From positions 1 to 24,990 of the IMG/VR virus record IMGVR_UViG_3300028829_006852: a stretch of 24,990 nt of DNA; one strand, written 5' to 3'. Below are positions 8,440 through 20,986 of this stretch, piece after piece. The notes under the pieces are model-generated. The model searched no databases. It had not been told where the DNA came from and worked only from the letters and a program-made list of their open reading frames with translations. Source of the DNA: a virus. Both the position numbers and the translations under genes were made by a program. The first letter of the stretch is position 1. The number at the start of each line of letters is the position of its first letter.

Positions 8440-9135
8440 ATGCAAGCGTATGCAATCGTAATTAAAGATCACGAAGTATCTGAGACTGGTTATAACAATC
8501 TAAAAGTTTCTTCTGAAAAATTTAAAAATTCTTTTAAGATTAGAAGGTTCGATGCTATTACACCTAAGATGGCAAGAACTGTTATGTCTGGTAATGGTCT
8601 TAAGTGGAAGTATCCTTGGGAAGGAAAAGAAACAGATTTGAAAACTGGTTTGATTAAATCGGCATATCAAACTGCTAACAAGAATACAAGAATTGCATGT
8701 GCATTAAGTCACTGGTTATTATGGCATAAATGTTTTATAGAAGATACACCTCTTCTTATATTAGAACACGATGCATTGTTTATTGAAAAGCTAGAACATA
8801 GTTCAATACTAAAAAGCAAATTTGATATTATAGGAATTAATAGTCCAGCGGCTGCAACACGTAAAGCTCATCAATTTCATGATATGGTTCAAGCCGGTAG
8901 ATCATTGATTCAACCGGTTCCTACAGTTGATGAATTTAATGTGCCACAAGGATTGGCTGGAAATAGCGCATATATAATTAAACCAACCGGAGCAAAGTCT
9001 ATATTAGATGCTGCTCGAGAACATGGGCTTTGGCCTAATGATGCATTAATGTGCAAGCAAATTATTCCAAACTTAGGTGTGACTAAGACTTATTATACTC
9101 GAGTTCAAGGTCTACCATCAACAACGGTAAGTTAA
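8440..9135 (+). CDS. GT25-like glycosyltransferase
   Basis: A 231-residue protein with the layout of LPS-type GT25 galactosyltransferases. It has an N-terminal YAIVIKDHEVSETGY strand, RFDAITPKM, the family signature IACALSHWLLW (85-95), and then LLILEHDALF in the position of the family ILEDDA motif. The first aspartate is replaced by histidine (EHD, 109-111). GNSAYIIKPTGAKSIL near residue 180 matches the acceptor-side G-x-AYxxxxxGA motif. GT25 enzymes extend LPS or collagen glycans; the acceptor here is unknown. The gene directly downstream is a second, diverged copy. Confidence 0.7.
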   Translation: MQAYAIVIKDHEVSETGYNNLKVSSEKFKNSFKIRRFDAITPKMARTVMSGNGLKWKYPWEGKETDLKTGLIKSAYQTANKNTRIACALSHWLLWHKCFIEDTPLLILEHDALFIEKLEHSSILKSKFDIIGINSPAAATRKAHQFHDMVQAGRSLIQPVPTVDEFNVPQGLAGNSAYIIKPTGAKSILDAAREHGLWPNDALMCKQIIPNLGVTKTYYTRVQGLPSTTVS

Positions 9136-9786
9136 ATGAGAGCATTTGTAATAGCAATTGAAGATAATGAAAGATCGGTGAAATATGCTCAACGGTGTAT
9201 AGCATCAGGTAAAAAGCATGGAATTGAAATTAAACAATTTAATGCATTTACTCCTAAAGATGGGCCTGAAAAATTTTTAGAGTCTCGTGGAATTAACCCA
9301 AATAGATTTAAAGAAAAATATTCGAGGCCAGAAAACTGTATGTCTGCTTTTATTTCTCACTATTCATGTTGGGAAATATCAAGAGACATGAATGAAAAAG
9401 TAGTTATATTTGAACATGATGCTCTTATAACTGGACAAGTTCCAGTTGATGTTGAGTTTGATAAAGTTATGACATTTTCTAAACCTTCCTATGGAAAATA
9501 TAAAACACCACTTAAACTCGGCGTAGATGGACTAATTCAAAAACAATACTTTGGCGGTGCCCATGGTTACATCGTTAAACCGGAAGGTGCTAAAGAATTA
9601 GTTACCAAAGCAGTGTCACATGCAGGACCTACGGATATATACCTCAATACTCAAAATTTCCCTTGGTTGCAAGAATATTATCCGTGGGTCTGCATGGCGG
9701 CTGATTCATTTTCTACAATACAAAATGAAACCGGCTGTTTAGCTAAACATAATTATAAAATAGGATATAAGATAATCGATGCCTAA
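9136..9786 (+). CDS. GT25-like glycosyltransferase, second copy
   Basis: A 216-residue protein parallel to its upstream neighbour. It has AFVIAIEDNERSV, KQFNAFTPKDG, the CMSAFISHYSCW signature (68-79), EHDA at 93-96, and AHGYIVKPEGAKELV. The EHD version of the family EDD motif is shared by both copies, so it is inherited rather than a mutation in one. Tandem duplication followed by divergence is the simplest origin. The start lies one base after the previous stop, and the end overlaps the next gene by 8 nt. Confidence 0.7.
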   Translation: MRAFVIAIEDNERSVKYAQRCIASGKKHGIEIKQFNAFTPKDGPEKFLESRGINPNRFKEKYSRPENCMSAFISHYSCWEISRDMNEKVVIFEHDALITGQVPVDVEFDKVMTFSKPSYGKYKTPLKLGVDGLIQKQYFGGAHGYIVKPEGAKELVTKAVSHAGPTDIYLNTQNFPWLQEYYPWVCMAADSFSTIQNETGCLAKHNYKIGYKIIDA

Positions 9787-10459
9787 AATGCCAGATAATT
9801 TATTCTTAACAGGATGTGATGAAAAAACTGAATGGCAATTGCCATGGTTTTTAGAAAACTATTTTAAACATAACAATACACCTATTGCTATTGGCAATTT
9901 TGGTATGTCTGATGAGATGGTACGTTGGTGTGAAACCAAAAGCCATGCTTTTTGCTTAATGCATCATGATCAAGTTGGTCAGTTTGAAAAAGCTTGGTTC
10001 TTGAAACCAGCTGCAATGTTAAAAGCACCGGGTAAAAAAGTAGTATGGCTTGACACTGATTGTCAAGTAATGTCAAATCTAGATCATATCTTTCGAATCC
10101 TTGTGCCAAATAAACTCAATATGGTAATGGATAGACCTTGGCTTAAGCGTAGGAAAGAAGAGTGGTTTAATTCAGGTGTTGTAGGATTTATTGGTAAGCC
10201 AGAAATTCTACATAAATGGGCTAAGCAAGTCGAAGATACACCTAACGTTGGTGATCAAGAAGTATTACACTCAATGCTTGATCCTCTTAATAGACAGATA
10301 TATATTCATGAGTTACCGAATAAATGGAATTGGCTAAGGCTACAAATTGAACATGATAATGAAGATTCAAATGATAAGAAAATTATGCACTGGACTGGTG
10401 CTAAAGGTAATGATAGGATTAAAGGGTTGATGAAGATTAAGGAGGTTGTTCGTGCCTAG
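9779..10459 (+). CDS. Glycosyltransferase-like protein (GT8-type motifs)
   Basis: A 226-residue protein with KVVWLDTDCQVMSNLDHIF, where DTD at 92-94 is the DxD nucleotide-sugar site. It then has FNSGVVGF (130-137), GDQEVLH (158-164) and, near the C terminus, IMHWTGAKGND. These are the ordered signatures of retaining GT8-like enzymes. It differs from the three DxD proteins upstream and probably has a separate origin. The donor sugar is unknown. It overlaps the next gene start slightly. Confidence 0.7.
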   Translation: MPKMPDNLFLTGCDEKTEWQLPWFLENYFKHNNTPIAIGNFGMSDEMVRWCETKSHAFCLMHHDQVGQFEKAWFLKPAAMLKAPGKKVVWLDTDCQVMSNLDHIFRILVPNKLNMVMDRPWLKRRKEEWFNSGVVGFIGKPEILHKWAKQVEDTPNVGDQEVLHSMLDPLNRQIYIHELPNKWNWLRLQIEHDNEDSNDKKIMHWTGAKGNDRIKGLMKIKEVVRA

Positions 10460-11120
10460 AACAGTACACATTATTGGTAATGGCGATTCAGCTGTATTAT
10501 ATCATGAAGAGCCACGTAAAGGTCTAAAGCTTACATGTAACTTACCACCATTTGCTGTGCCGGATGCATACGCCACGTGTATGGTTGACTTTAAGATGAT
10601 GCATACTATTAATACTGGCGTTATCGATGTTCCTGGTGAATGGATTCTTGGTGCTCGTCCTAAGTTGTATATGGAAAAACATCCAATCTATTACACTAAA
10701 CGTGCTCCACAAATTAAACAATTTTATACTAAACTTCCAAAGTATGCTGCAAATTATACAGACTTCAATTGTGGTCATATGGCAACATACTTTTCACTTG
10801 AGCATCTTAAAGCTGAAGTGATCCATATGTATGGATTTGATTCTATTTTTGATTTTAATTTAAGATCAAGCACAGATTTTTATATCACTTCTGATAGAGG
10901 CAATATGAATAATAATCGGTTGACTAATAACTGGCGGCCACTATTCAATAGTATGTTTAAAGATTTTAAAGATACGAAAATAAACTTGCATCACTTCCAT
11001 AGTCTATTGAAGTTTGACGTACCGCCAAATGTAGAGGTTCATAGTTATAAAAAGCGTGGAGAAATTGTAGATGCTGGGAAAGGTAGTGGCCAAATAAAAA
11101 CTGTAGATCTAAGGGATTAA
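10452..11120 (+). CDS. DUF115/sialyltransferase-like Rossmann protein
   Basis: A protein of about 222 residues. The N terminus reads TVHIIGNGDSAVLY, a glycine-rich loop like the AGNGPS loop of GT42/DUF115 proteins. Later GHMATYFSLEHLKAEVIHMYGFD matches their SGxxAxxxAxxxGxxxIxLxGxD pattern. Those families transfer or process nonulosonic-acid sugars, but the match is partial and substrate is unknown. I use GTG 10452 because AAGGAGG ends seven bases upstream; the in-frame TTG at 10446 overlaps that site. It is the last gene of the carbohydrate cluster, followed by promoter P2. Confidence 0.55.
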   Translation: MPRTVHIIGNGDSAVLYHEEPRKGLKLTCNLPPFAVPDAYATCMVDFKMMHTINTGVIDVPGEWILGARPKLYMEKHPIYYTKRAPQIKQFYTKLPKYAANYTDFNCGHMATYFSLEHLKAEVIHMYGFDSIFDFNLRSSTDFYITSDRGNMNNNRLTNNWRPLFNSMFKDFKDTKINLHHFHSLLKFDVPPNVEVHSYKKRGEIVDAGKGSGQIKTVDLRD

Positions 11121-16041: not shown

Positions 16042-16230
16042 ATGGAAAAAACATATGCATATAAGTACGGTGAGTTACTAATACTTGCACAAACACTAGC
16101 TCATACAGTTAAAGAAGATATTCGGCTGGATGTAAATGGGCCATATGCTTTTGCCCATAAACTTGTATTAGCTCAAGCTAATGCAGTTCAGGATCTTATT
16201 GTAGAACATGAAAAGAGAGGTAAGGAATAA
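16042..16230 (+). CDS. Hypothetical protein, 62 aa
   Basis: First gene after P5, with AAAGAGGAG before its ATG and the same leader as the gene after P1. Sixty-two residues form two likely helices (YGELLILAQTLAHTVKE and YAFAHKLVLAQANAVQDLIVEHE) in a helical hairpin. No family is recognised. It overlaps the next ATG by one base (TAATG). Confidence 0.65.
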   Translation: MEKTYAYKYGELLILAQTLAHTVKEDIRLDVNGPYAFAHKLVLAQANAVQDLIVEHEKRGKE

Positions 16231-17348
16231 TGGCAAAACGTAAACAGAAACTTAGGGCTAAAGCTAAAACAGGTTTATCAGCAGTTCCTATTGATAAAGG
16301 ATTTAGTGTTGCTGTAGATTACTTTCATATGAATGTTGATCGTAAAGATCTTATTAACACTATGAAGTCATATGTAAAAAAGAATATGGACAAAGAACAA
16401 GCACGATATGTTCTATCATGTCCGGACTATAAGTTCTATGCGTTTACTCATAAATGTGCTACAGCATTTTGGATTGATGCTGGTTTACCTTCAGATGATA
16501 AGGTTAAACAATATGCTGAAGGACTATATAAGCATTTAATTGAATGCACTGAAATGGGTAAGAAGCTATACTTTGAAAAGCAAGCTAAGCTAAAAGACTC
16601 AGATAAAGTTGTATCTCTTTCTCCGATGCAAAGATTGCAAAACAAAATAGGTAATACCATTATGCAAGATCTCCTTGATCTAGAAGATCAATGGATGGAT
16701 GGAGAAAAAGCTGAACTAGATATTTACCAAGAATTTAAACGACACGGTTTGCCTAACAGTGCTACTAACGCTGTAAGGCCGGTGATTGAGGGATGGTTAC
16801 TAGATTATGGTGATGCATACCATAAGCGTTGTCCTGATGCTGTTGAAGGTTATGCACATGTGAAAAGACCTGAACTCAATCGCCGCATTAAATGTTGTGA
16901 AGCTATGCTAGCTGATCTAGATAAACTTAAAGCTGCGGCTAAAGCTACTCGAGCTACAAAGGTGAAAGGTCCTAAAGCTGCGGATAAACAAATCACTCGA
17001 GTTCAATACAAAAAAGAAGATAACGAGTTTAAGTTGGTGTCTATACCACCTATCAAAATGGTTGGTCAAACTCGGCTATTCACATTTAATACTAAGACTC
17101 GTATCCTTTCTGAGTATATTACTCAAGCTGCAAATGGATTTGAGATCTCAGGTACATCACTTAAGAATTTCGATAAAGTTAATAGTAGGTGTACTAAACT
17201 TAGAAAGCCTGATGAATTCATTGCTATTGTTCAGAATAAGAGTGTAACTCAAATCGATAAGGAGTTCAAACAACTTACTACTAAAGTCAATGTACCAAAT
17301 GGTAGATTGAATATGGATACAATATTACTAAGGGCATTAGACAAATGA
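16230..17348 (+). CDS. Conserved unknown protein beside gp33/gp32, 372 aa
   Basis: A 372-residue soluble protein with a very basic N terminus (AKRKQKLRAKAKTG), a helical central part (residues about 140-240) and a Lys/Ala-rich linker near 235-255 (LKAAAKATRATKVKGPKAAD). The C-terminal beta-rich region follows (FKLVSIPPIKMVGQTRLFTF). The basic start and linker suggest nucleic-acid binding, but no motif proves it. It occupies the place where T4 has gene 59 relative to gene 33, but length and sequence do not look like the gp59 helicase loader. It overlaps the gp33-like gene by 4 nt. Confidence 0.65.
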   Translation: MAKRKQKLRAKAKTGLSAVPIDKGFSVAVDYFHMNVDRKDLINTMKSYVKKNMDKEQARYVLSCPDYKFYAFTHKCATAFWIDAGLPSDDKVKQYAEGLYKHLIECTEMGKKLYFEKQAKLKDSDKVVSLSPMQRLQNKIGNTIMQDLLDLEDQWMDGEKAELDIYQEFKRHGLPNSATNAVRPVIEGWLLDYGDAYHKRCPDAVEGYAHVKRPELNRRIKCCEAMLADLDKLKAAAKATRATKVKGPKAADKQITRVQYKKEDNEFKLVSIPPIKMVGQTRLFTFNTKTRILSEYITQAANGFEISGTSLKNFDKVNSRCTKLRKPDEFIAIVQNKSVTQIDKEFKQLTTKVNVPNGRLNMDTILLRALDK

Positions 17349-17665: not shown

Positions 17666-18571
17666 ATGTCATTCGAAAATCTAAAACGCAACCGCGATCA
17701 AATCTCCAAATTAGTTCAAGCAGCAGAAGCCGTCGGTGGCGGTGAAAAAAAGTCATACGCTGATGAACGTGAATGGAAACCAACAGTAGATAAAGCAGGA
17801 AATGGATATGCCGTACTCAGATTCTTGCCAGCCGCAGAAGGTTCAGACTTACCGTGGGTTCGATATTGGGACCATGGATTCAAAGGACCAACCGGTCAAT
17901 GGTATATCGAAAACAGCCTTACATCTATTGGTCAACCTGATCCTGTTGGCGAACTCAACTCACGGCTCTGGAATTCCGGCCATGAAGAAGATAAAGATAC
18001 TGCCCGGAAACAAAAGCGTCGACTACACTATGTAGTTAATGCATTGGTTGTAGAAGATCCTTCTGCTCCACATAATGTTGGCCGTGTAGTACTCTATAAG
18101 TTTGGTAAGAAAATCTTTGATAAAGTTATGGATGTTATGCAACCATCATTTGCTGATGAGAAAGCTGTTAACCCATTTGACTTCTGGGATGGTGCAGACT
18201 TTAAACTTAAGATTCGGCAGGTTGAAGGTTATCGCAACTACGATAAATCTGAATTTGCTTCACCTGCACCATTGTTCGGTGGTGATGATACAAAACTCGA
18301 AGAGGTATATGGTAAACAACATAACCTTAATGAGTTCACTGATCCTTCGAACTACAAGACTTATGATGAACTCAAAGCTAAACTTGCACGGGTTCTCGGT
18401 GAATCACCTCAAGCCATGGGTGCACCTACTATGGCACAGGAATCTCAAATGAATGTTCCTGCTCCAGCACCTGAGTATAAAGTGGCTGAACCAATCACTG
18501 CAGAAGAAATGAATGTTACCAGTGATGATGATACGATGTCTTATTTTGCTAAGCTAGCTCAAGAAGACTAA
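17666..18571 (+). CDS. 32: Single-stranded DNA-binding protein gp32 (zinc-less)
   Basis: A 301-residue gp32 homologue, the same length as the T4 protein. The N-terminal cooperativity region (FENLKRNRDQISKLVQAA) carries basic residues. The OB-fold core has YAVLRFLPA, VRYWDHGFK, QWYIENSL, VVEDPSAPHNVGRVVLYKFGKKIFDK and FKLKIRQVEGYRNYDKSEF, all readily aligned with T4. The acidic C terminus (TSDDDTMSYFAKLAQED) binds replication partners in the family. The T4 zinc cysteines are absent: the IENCSS and CPVC positions read IENSLT and DPVG, and only the histidine of DHGF remains. It coats ssDNA in replication, recombination and repair. Its stop overlaps the stop of the convergent gene. Confidence 0.95.
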   Translation: MSFENLKRNRDQISKLVQAAEAVGGGEKKSYADEREWKPTVDKAGNGYAVLRFLPAAEGSDLPWVRYWDHGFKGPTGQWYIENSLTSIGQPDPVGELNSRLWNSGHEEDKDTARKQKRRLHYVVNALVVEDPSAPHNVGRVVLYKFGKKIFDKVMDVMQPSFADEKAVNPFDFWDGADFKLKIRQVEGYRNYDKSEFASPAPLFGGDDTKLEEVYGKQHNLNEFTDPSNYKTYDELKAKLARVLGESPQAMGAPTMAQESQMNVPAPAPEYKVAEPITAEEMNVTSDDDTMSYFAKLAQED

Positions 18572-20091
18572 TGGGCTAAATAACCATAGGCTTCCTCCAT
18601 CGGCCTATCTGGATTATTTACAGTTGGCGGTGAGGAAGTCATTACAATATCCTGTTTAACAGGATTATTTTGTGATGCATCTATTACAGTTGGTGTTGTA
18701 TTTACACCAACTGTTCTATATTTTTCAAAATATTCTATAAGCGACATATTCATTTCTTTAGCTAGTTCTTTTATTTTTGTCATATCACTTATGCCAAAAG
18801 TTGCGCTCAGCATCGCTTCCTGAGCTTTAGCATTTTCTATCCTCCTAATATTAGAGGGAATAATTTTTTTATTGTCTCTTTTAACTGCTACAAATTTTAT
18901 TATCTCATCAGCAGTTGTTTTATCTGACTGTGTTACTTTTGCCCCAAATGCCTCAGCTGCTTGTTCTGCAGTCATTCCGCCTTGAGATGATCCTCGTCTA
19001 AGCATAGCATCTCTATTATCACTATTAAGAAATGCAGCGCGCTCTGCATTAAGTTTCTCAAGTGAGGCCATAGCATTTTTCAATGCAGCAGCATCACCAG
19101 CTGAGAATTTTACCCCGGTGCGTGGATCCATCGCATCTCGTTTCTGTTTGAAAAGCGTTTGTACTTGGCTTTGAGTTTCATCAAGTAATTTTGCTCGTTC
19201 AGGTCTTGCTTGTCTAAAAGCATCTTTTTCAGCTGATGTTGTAATAAAGTCTGGAGCAATTTTATCTAGTGAATCTAATATAAAATTACCTGCAGCTATT
19301 ATACTATCTTCAACATTCTTTTTAATGTTTGCAGCTTTTTCATCTACAAGTTTCTTAAACTCTGGATCATTTTGATATCTGTCATATGCCTTATATAGAC
19401 TAAAACTACCAGCAATAATAGCGCCACCAATGGCACCTAATGGACCAAGCACTAAACCACCTATTGTAGTAAATGCTGCAATATTGGTAAGGCCTTTAGC
19501 GCTTTCACCAATAATTGGTGCCCAGTCAATATTTTGTTTAGCAAGTTCTGTTTCAACATAATTGCCTAATTCATTACTTGCTACTAAAATAGCAGATGCC
19601 AGACCACCAAGAATGGCACCTTTTGGTCCAAACATAGCTCCTATGCCAGCACCAACAATTCCAGCTTCCGTTAACGCAGCAGCAAAATCTGAGCCAGTCA
19701 AAGCTTTCACACCCTTTGCAATCTCATCTGCAAACATTGCAGCTATAAGACCAAAAACACCTCGCTTTAATAATTTTGCTAGAAATGCTAGTGAGAATAA
19801 TTTACCAGCACCGCTTAATAACTTACCAAAACCCATACCACCTAAGAAATTTCCAAGATTAAATCCATCATCGCCACCATTTTTTTTAACTTCTTGTGTA
19901 GCAGTAGCTATAGTTGCTGCTTGATTATTTTTCTTTTCTCTAAGCGCTTCTAAATCATCAAGTCTTTTTCTTTTTTCAAAATCAAAAAAACCTAATATAC
20001 CAACTTTCATTTCACTAATATTTTTATTAGTGTCTTCAGCTAGCTTTTTATTAGATAATAAAGTTTGATTAATTTCAGCTAGTGTAGCCAT
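18568..20091 (-). CDS. Tape-measure-like tail protein (gp29-type candidate)
   Basis: A 507-residue protein read after gp26 and its chaperone-like extension, the position where tail phages carry the tape-measure gene. The N-terminal 70 residues are helical and charged. Glycine- and alanine-rich hydrophobic stretches lie at about 80-115, 140-175 and 205-235 (AGIGAMFGPKGAILGGLASA). A long helical region (about 245-450) with AKLLDETQSQVQTLFKQKRD follows, then a disordered Pro/Asn/Thr tail (SSPPTVNNPDRPMEEAYGY). The hydrophobic segments fit the membrane-entering part of tape measures. T4 gp29 is 590 residues. A different virion protein cannot be excluded. Its stop overlaps the gp32 stop on the opposite strand. 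Confidence 0.5.
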   Translation of the reverse strand: MATLAEINQTLLSNKKLAEDTNKNISEMKVGILGFFDFEKRKRLDDLEALREKKNNQAATIATATQEVKKNGGDDGFNLGNFLGGMGFGKLLSGAGKLFSLAFLAKLLKRGVFGLIAAMFADEIAKGVKALTGSDFAAALTEAGIVGAGIGAMFGPKGAILGGLASAILVASNELGNYVETELAKQNIDWAPIIGESAKGLTNIAAFTTIGGLVLGPLGAIGGAIIAGSFSLYKAYDRYQNDPEFKKLVDEKAANIKKNVEDSIIAAGNFILDSLDKIAPDFITTSAEKDAFRQARPERAKLLDETQSQVQTLFKQKRDAMDPRTGVKFSAGDAAALKNAMASLEKLNAERAAFLNSDNRDAMLRRGSSQGGMTAEQAAEAFGAKVTQSDKTTADEIIKFVAVKRDNKKIIPSNIRRIENAKAQEAMLSATFGISDMTKIKELAKEMNMSLIEYFEKYRTVGVNTTPTVIDASQNNPVKQDIVMTSSPPTVNNPDRPMEEAYGYLAH

Positions 20092-20093
20092 TG

Positions 20094-20273
20094 CTATCCC
20101 CTTTGGGCTTGTTCATTTTTTTCTTTTAAGTCTTCTGTAAGTAACGTTAGATATACTTCCCTCTCCCAAGGTATCATTAAATCTATTTCTGTTAAAGAGT
20201 ATTGAAAATTTTGCATTAGTTGATAGTTAACTCTATAATAGTTTTCTAAAGAATCATGAGAGAGGTTTAAGAA
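20094..20273 (-). CDS. -1 frameshift extension of gp26 (tail-assembly-chaperone-like)
   Basis: A frame open from 20300 to the stop at 20094-20096. Its conserved-looking part starts well before the first ATG (20216), with FLNLSHDSLENYYRVNYQL, then MQNFQYSLTEIDLMIPWERE and VYLTLLTEDLKEKNEQAQRG. The SLTEI...MIPWEREVYL pattern is familiar from tail-chaperone extensions and gp26/gp51-neighbour proteins of T4-like and SPO1-like phages. A -1 shift on the T8 run at the end of gp26 would add these 59 residues, giving a 297-residue fusion. Separate translation from ATG 20216 would yield only 40 residues and lacks a clear ribosome site. I favour frameshifting; it is inferred, not shown. Confidence 0.6.
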   Translation of the reverse strand, partial: FLNLSHDSLENYYRVNYQLMQNFQYSLTEIDLMIPWEREVYLTLLTEDLKEKNEQAQRG

Positions 20274-20986
20274 AAAAAATCCTGAATGCCTTCCAATACA
20301 TTATGATTTTCTTTACCACATGATTCGCATGTAAACTTAACATCGTATTTTAATGTTGGCGCATTTGAAATAAATTTATTAATTTCATTAAATTGACTAG
20401 TCGTTAATGAATTTATAAATTGATCGATTTCTTCATCTGATTCATTTTTTAACGAAATCAATTCATCTTCTGTCATTATACTATCAATTGATATTTTAAT
20501 TGTTTCGTATACAATTTCAGTATTTGAATAATTATCTTCAGTAATAATTTTGTTGTTAATAATTTCAGTGTAAGAAGGCCATTTCATTTTAAGAGAAATG
20601 TCATCATTAATTTTTACAATATTAGATTCATTTAAATTTATTAGTTCTGCATTCTCTAAATTTACTACTACTTCGTTTGAATGCAAGCATGATTCATCTG
20701 AACATTTTACTGTAATTGTGGTAGTTTCACCTACAGCTTTAGTTCTAATATTTGTAAAAACATAATCTACATCAAATGATGTAAGTTTCTTTTCATCTAT
20801 ACTAGGACAACACGCGCTTATTGTAGCTAAAATTGAATTAAGAATTTGTTTTTTATCTTTTGTTTCAAATGCCATTAACAATACTTTTTGTTCTTTCACA
20901 AGAAATGGTCTAAATTGTATTACTTCTTGTGTCGACGGTATAGTTAATTCATATTGAGGTGATTCATTTAACCGTGGTAGTGCCAT
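20267..20986 (-). CDS. 26: Baseplate hub assembly protein gp26-like
   Basis: A 239-residue protein of the T4 base-plate (gp26) family type. The N terminus ALPRLNESPQYELTIPSTQE, followed by IQFRPFLVKEQKVLLMAFE, is characteristic of the phage family. The middle is helical and acidic. Four cysteines in two pairs (C95, C100 and C220, C223 in CESCGK) look like a zinc ribbon joining distant parts of the chain. T4 gp26 is needed for assembly of the baseplate hub. Here its end carries the slippery T8 run, so a fraction of ribosomes may make a longer product with a chaperone-like tail. AGGAG precedes the start and overlaps the stop region of the gp54-like gene. Confidence 0.8.
   Translation of the reverse strand: MALPRLNESPQYELTIPSTQEVIQFRPFLVKEQKVLLMAFETKDKKQILNSILATISACCPSIDEKKLTSFDVDYVFTNIRTKAVGETTTITVKCSDESCLHSNEVVVNLENAELINLNESNIVKINDDISLKMKWPSYTEIINNKIITEDNYSNTEIVYETIKISIDSIMTEDELISLKNESDEEIDQFINSLTTSQFNEINKFISNAPTLKYDVKFTCESCGKENHNVLEGIQDFFS
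20272..20279 (-). other. Slippery sequence T TTT TTT for -1 frameshift
   Basis: On the minus strand the gp26 frame reads GAT TTT TTT TCT TAA. The last T of GAT plus two TTT codons form an ideal X XXY YYZ heptamer, and the zero-frame stop follows one codon later. After slipping back one base the ribosome continues TTC TTA AAC into the extension frame. Confidence 0.6.

Follow-up and report, generated by a model that had tools for sequence, protein, structure and literature searches.

The gp26 gene of an uncultured T4-like phage very probably yields two tail chaperones, a short one and a long one, through programmed −1 ribosomal frameshifting close to its stop codon. We analysed this gene in a 24,990-base virus record (the window, which is probably a fragment), where it occupies positions 20267–20986 of the minus strand. 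Its zero-frame product is a TAC-N-like protein of 239 aa that matches the Pfam family PF12322 (T4_baseplate, 1.4e-53) and phrog_150 (1.2e-55); the AlphaFold2 model of this protein has a mean pLDDT of 91. On the minus strand, the end of the gene reads ATT CAG GAT TTT TTT TCT TAA ACC. The heptamer T TTT TTT (20279–20273) lies in frame within a run of eight T, and the zero-frame stop TAA is found at 20267–20269. The −1 frame that opens at the heptamer (20094–20273, minus strand) continues for 59 codons, translates as F-LNLSHDSLENYYRVNYQLMQNFQYSLTEIDLMIPWEREVYLTLLTEDLKEKNEQAQRG and ends with a TAG stop at 20096–20094. The predicted transframe product, composed of gp26 residues 1–238 and these 59 residues, has a length of 297 aa. 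The minus-strand sequence agrees with the earlier note on this DNA in the coordinates, the T TTT TTT heptamer and the 59-codon −1 frame.

We infer that slippage occurs, that it is the less frequent outcome and that its products serve as chaperones. Most ribosomes would terminate at TAA 20267 and release the 239-aa short chaperone (TAC-N, like T4 gp26). A minority would slip back by one base on T TTT TTT with two Phe tRNAs paired, translate 59 further codons and thereby produce the 297-aa long chaperone (TAC-NC, like T4 gp51). On the model of lambda G/GT, the tape measure or hub protein would be coated by the short form and recruited by the extension during tail assembly.

We compared 146 gp26 loci from IMG/VR and deposited phages, and all of them carry T TTT TT[C/T/A] in frame just before the gp26 stop. 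The last base of the heptamer is C in 107 loci, T in 36 and A in three, and the distance from the heptamer to the zero-frame stop is 2–4 codons, except for five loci in which it is 10 codons. A −1 extension of 56–67 aa is present in 143 loci, the other three being cut by the contig end. The taxa covered are Kyanoviridae, Schizotequatrovirus, Ceceduovirus, Angelvirus, Emdodecavirus, Pootjesviridae, Menderavirus, Otagovirus, Chakrabartyvirus and Ionavirus. IMG/VR scans with vibriophage and Delftia phage queries returned almost no further loci, and a scan with a Vibrio K476 query returned none. At below 80% identity the loci form 53 clusters, and in every cluster TTT is the first Phe codon of the heptamer and the codon before it ends in T. 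Measured against each gene's own codon usage, this choice of Phe and preceding codon has a joint probability of ~1e-19 (not corrected for relatedness). In pf16, phiN3, Marzo, PhiW-14 and OLIVR5, TTT accounts for 12–33% of Phe codons overall, yet it is kept at the heptamer, which persists even in GC-rich phages where TTT is rare. A further 573 genes of the same DNA served as controls: five have such a heptamer within their last 12 codons, and none combines it with a −1 frame of at least 45 codons.

The eight consecutive T of the window are long enough in principle for transcriptional slippage, in which case RNA polymerase would insert an extra U into some mRNAs and thereby open the −1 frame. 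We regard this explanation as very improbable, given that 107 of the 146 loci read T TTT TTC, where the run is usually six T and too short for efficient slippage, and that the ribosomal heptamer pattern stays in frame even with short T runs. Both the conserved frame phase and the Y at the last position fit tandem tRNA slippage. Homopolymer runs are also error-prone in some sequencing methods, and a sequencing or assembly error could have split one gene in two. The conservation over 146 loci, which include the isolates P-SSM2, HTVC008M and PhiW-14 in addition to independent metagenomes, refutes this reading and leaves it a negligible probability: the run comprises six T in most loci, and a terminated gp26 on its own is a real product in T4.

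In most clusters, the extension is conserved ahead of any ATG. In the alignment of the 53 clusters, variability at the three codon positions of the −1 frame is 0.50/0.33/0.62, the pattern expected of coding DNA. A conserved block, FFxxxLSHxxLxNYYxxN, precedes the first ATG in most relatives. The earlier proposal that the extension is coding before any ATG is thus borne out. The opposite case, a lack of conservation upstream of ATG 20216, was looked for, and the residues before the first ATG turned out to be conserved.

Most records annotate the extension as a CDS of its own that starts at an internal ATG; vibriophages, Marzo and PhiW-14 have an ATG that overlaps the stop codon of gp26 (TAATG or TGATG). 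This would suit a separate small gene, a short 'gp51' whose translation re-initiates, or starts independently, past the gp26 stop. We consider such a gene very improbable: the conserved residues lie before the annotated starts, which vary among relatives; the first ATG occurs at codon 14 or later in 35 of the 53 clusters, and two clusters have none; a start codon with even a 4-nt Shine-Dalgarno match is found in only five; and the invariant heptamer would be left unexplained. The extension of the window contains just two in-frame ATGs, at 20216 and 20177, neither of which is preceded by a Shine-Dalgarno-like sequence, while the next gene (ATG 20091) does have one: AAAGGGGA. No relative turned up that encodes the extension as a separate gene, equipped with a strong ribosome site and lacking a slippery run; the heptamer is kept in all 146 loci. 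In every record examined, gp26 is annotated to its zero-frame stop, as the earlier note had expected. In Aeromonas CC2 (L063:3690–3858) and Cronobacter S13 (L155:3217–3381), the extension is present and no gene is annotated there. CC2 (Emmerichvirinae) is an Aeromonas phage that we take to be related to Aeh1.

The frameshift reading is further supported by the homology of the extension, which is TAC-C-like and corresponds to the C-terminal part of T4 gp51. The 58 residues of the window extension match phrog_634 ('baseplate hub assembly catalyst') at 3e-22 and also match the last 47 positions (236–282) of the gp26 family profile phrog_150 at 2.3e-8. In an hhalign comparison, the extension profile aligns to residues 200–246 of T4-type gp51 (2.5e-7). 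T4 gp51 (249 aa) in turn matches phrog_150 over residues 3–248 (2.6e-84). T4 gp26 and T4 gp51 recognize each other in a pairwise BLASTP search (2e-6), the profiles of frameshift-type gp26 and T4-type gp51 match at 1.8e-12, and the frameshift-type family profile matches T4 gp26 at 3.8e-23. The whole-length match of gp51 to the gp26 family, together with the match of the extension, indicates that T4 gp51 resembles gp26 and carries the extension in the same frame, T4 gp26 being the version without it. The tail-chaperone-like extension fused to gp26, as the earlier note described it, has its homolog in a protein that is itself the same fusion. In T4-type gp51, the residues that flank the junction on both sides are encoded in a single frame, which also speaks against a separate small gene. 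AlphaFold2 models of gp26 and of T4-type gp51 (pLDDT 83 for the latter) agree in how helices and strands follow one another over the shared part, and the extension is predicted to form helices. A possible relationship of the extension to T4 gp28 was rejected (E 0.12).

All five Tevenvirinae-type phages examined (T4, Bhz15, Cronus, Ae31 and RB43) carry both genes and lack the heptamer as well as the −1 extension. The two genes lie on opposite strands in T4, Bhz15, Cronus and Aeromonas phage 31, and in tandem in RB43. In an unrooted tree of 30 sequences, which contains some long branches, the single-gene frameshift type is split from the T4-type genes with support 96/98, and the T4-type gp51 genes cluster together with support 100/99. 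This topology fits a single duplication in the lineage of the Tevenvirinae. T4 gp26 resembles the short form of the window and T4 gp51 the long form, with a homologous C-terminal part; the difference is that T4 encodes them as two paralogous genes on opposite strands, without a slippery site. In one IMG/VR genome of Tevenvirinae type, the T4-type gp51 is split mid-gene between two frames (L168:1501–2246), possibly as a result of a sequencing error.

Several features near the heptamer were considered as stimulators of slippage. Strong anti-Shine-Dalgarno pairing occurs 8–10 nt upstream of the heptamer in most clusters, with a mean rank of 0.10 within the gene. In the window, this position is occupied by the Shine-Dalgarno-like sequence GAAGG (20289–20293, minus strand), nine bases upstream of the heptamer. 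It may aid slippage, as in dnaX. GAAGG overlaps a conserved E-G residue pair, and a codon-choice test gave a weak signal (17 of 39, against 11.2 +/- 2.7 expected); at the level of sequence, the upstream signal cannot be separated from protein constraint. RNA folding downstream of the heptamer is weak, both in the family (mean z −1.22, with 28% below −2) and in the window (−4.5 kcal/mol for 90 nt), and therefore provides no clear 3′ stimulator. A conserved downstream pseudoknot or stem is unsupported by the family folding.

The genes around gp26 are recognisably T4-like and belong to tail and head: tail tube, DNA end protector, head closure, tail tube cap, gp53 and gp32. A nucleotide search of deposited phages with the gp26 locus revealed no close relative, and the comparison was therefore made at the protein level. 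The nearest deposited phage by protein is C48C1 (Kyanoviridae), whose gp26 is 43% identical to that of the window. Elsewhere in the window, a cluster of glycosyltransferase-like genes (8440–11117) comprises two Glyco_transf_25 members and one borderline Glyco_transf_8 member, and is immediately preceded by a weak methyltransferase-like gene. A 372-aa protein of unknown function (16230–17348) matches phrog_11903 at 1.8e-55; its gene sits just before that of a late promoter transcriptional regulator at 17345.

The gene that follows the extension (18568–20091, minus strand) encodes 507 aa and is a candidate tape measure gene, as suggested by its position, its size and a hydrophobic stretch. Its sequence matches that of phage C48C1 only, and a comparison with T4 gp29 gave no sequence match. 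The HTVC008M gene in the comparable place is annotated as 'putative tail tape measure'. In T4, the listed hub assembly chaperones include gp26 and gp51, of which the latter was reported to be needed for assembly yet absent from the particle (PMC3004832). By analogy with these two T4 proteins, gp26 and its extension in the window would function as tail assembly chaperones. Among the PDB hits listed in a fold search, the HK97 tail assembly chaperone 2ob9 had the highest probability (0.60; E 1.4, TM 0.19/0.39). The fold searches gave no significant PDB match, and a sequence search of solved structures gave no relevant match. The weak resemblance of the model to the HK97 chaperone is suggestive and points in the same direction as a chaperone role, without proving it.

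A gp51-like extension in the −1 frame also occurs in Ackermannviridae (Kuttervirus, Taipeivirus and Miltonvirus), in the Vibrio phages K476 and K357 and in Aeromonas TSW001 (gp26 ends of loci L152, L153, L154, L170, L171, L068 and L172–L186). In this group, PWHLD replaces PWERE, and most members show conservation of the extension upstream of the first ATG. The canonical heptamer is absent: the first Phe codon is replaced by ATT, GTT or CTT, and only T TTY is conserved (NTT TTC or CTT TTT). Tentatively, and with more doubt than confidence, one may envisage that the short and long chaperones arise by three routes. The window and most T4-like groups would use tandem −1 slippage on T TTT TTY, and Tevenvirinae a gene duplication; in Ackermannviridae and the Vibrio and Aeromonas phages related to them, the −1 extension with T TTY only would suggest single-tRNA (P-site) slippage or another route.

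Tail chaperones produced by −1 frameshifting are known from several phages. P2 E/E′ and Mu 41/42 are examples, and those of the lambda G/GT type were reportedly described by Xu, Hendrix and Duda in 2004. Lambda G/GT-type chaperones comprise a major form, which is short, and a minor form, which is lengthened by frameshifting, and are encoded beside the tape measure gene. The system of the window would work in the same way, next to a candidate tape measure gene; no sequence relationship between the two is evident, the likeness to the 2ob9 fold being only suggestive. For T4-like phages, Vladimirov, Gautam and Davidson are said to have reported in 2022 that frameshifting is conserved in several groups and that T4 uses genes 26 and 51. 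Frameshifting by −1 has already been cited for T4-like TAC-N genes (PMC12846349), with reference to these authors (Virology 2022;566:9-15). As far as the cited account extends, their system involves the same gene family, with short and long forms and a polyT −1 slippery site that ends the short form. Measured against that account, the window does not appear to differ in kind and represents an uncultured marine or aquatic relative with no close deposited match. TAC frameshifting with a GTTTTT motif has been described for Vandenendeviridae and Andersonviridae, where a polyT slippery motif likewise ends TAC-N and the −1 extension precedes the tape measure gene (PMC12846349); these are other phage families with another conserved motif.

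The arrangement also accounts for puzzling gp51 annotations. A 2010 report by Sullivan et al. described cyanophage gp51 as only ~20% of its usual length and gp51 as missing in Aeh1 (PMC3037559). The former is explained by the frameshift; an unannotated extension, as in CC2, could explain the latter. Judged by sequence, what T4-like cyanophages, pelagiphages, vibriophages and rhizobiophages have beside gp26 as a small gene annotated 'gp51' or 'baseplate hub assembly catalyst' most likely represents the end of gp26 itself, reached by frameshifting, a reading that would correct a persistent annotation error around this gene. With the window, a scheme that had been proposed in earlier publications gains one uncultured lineage. 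T4 has a separate gene for each form, which makes the system convenient for tests of the role of the long form.
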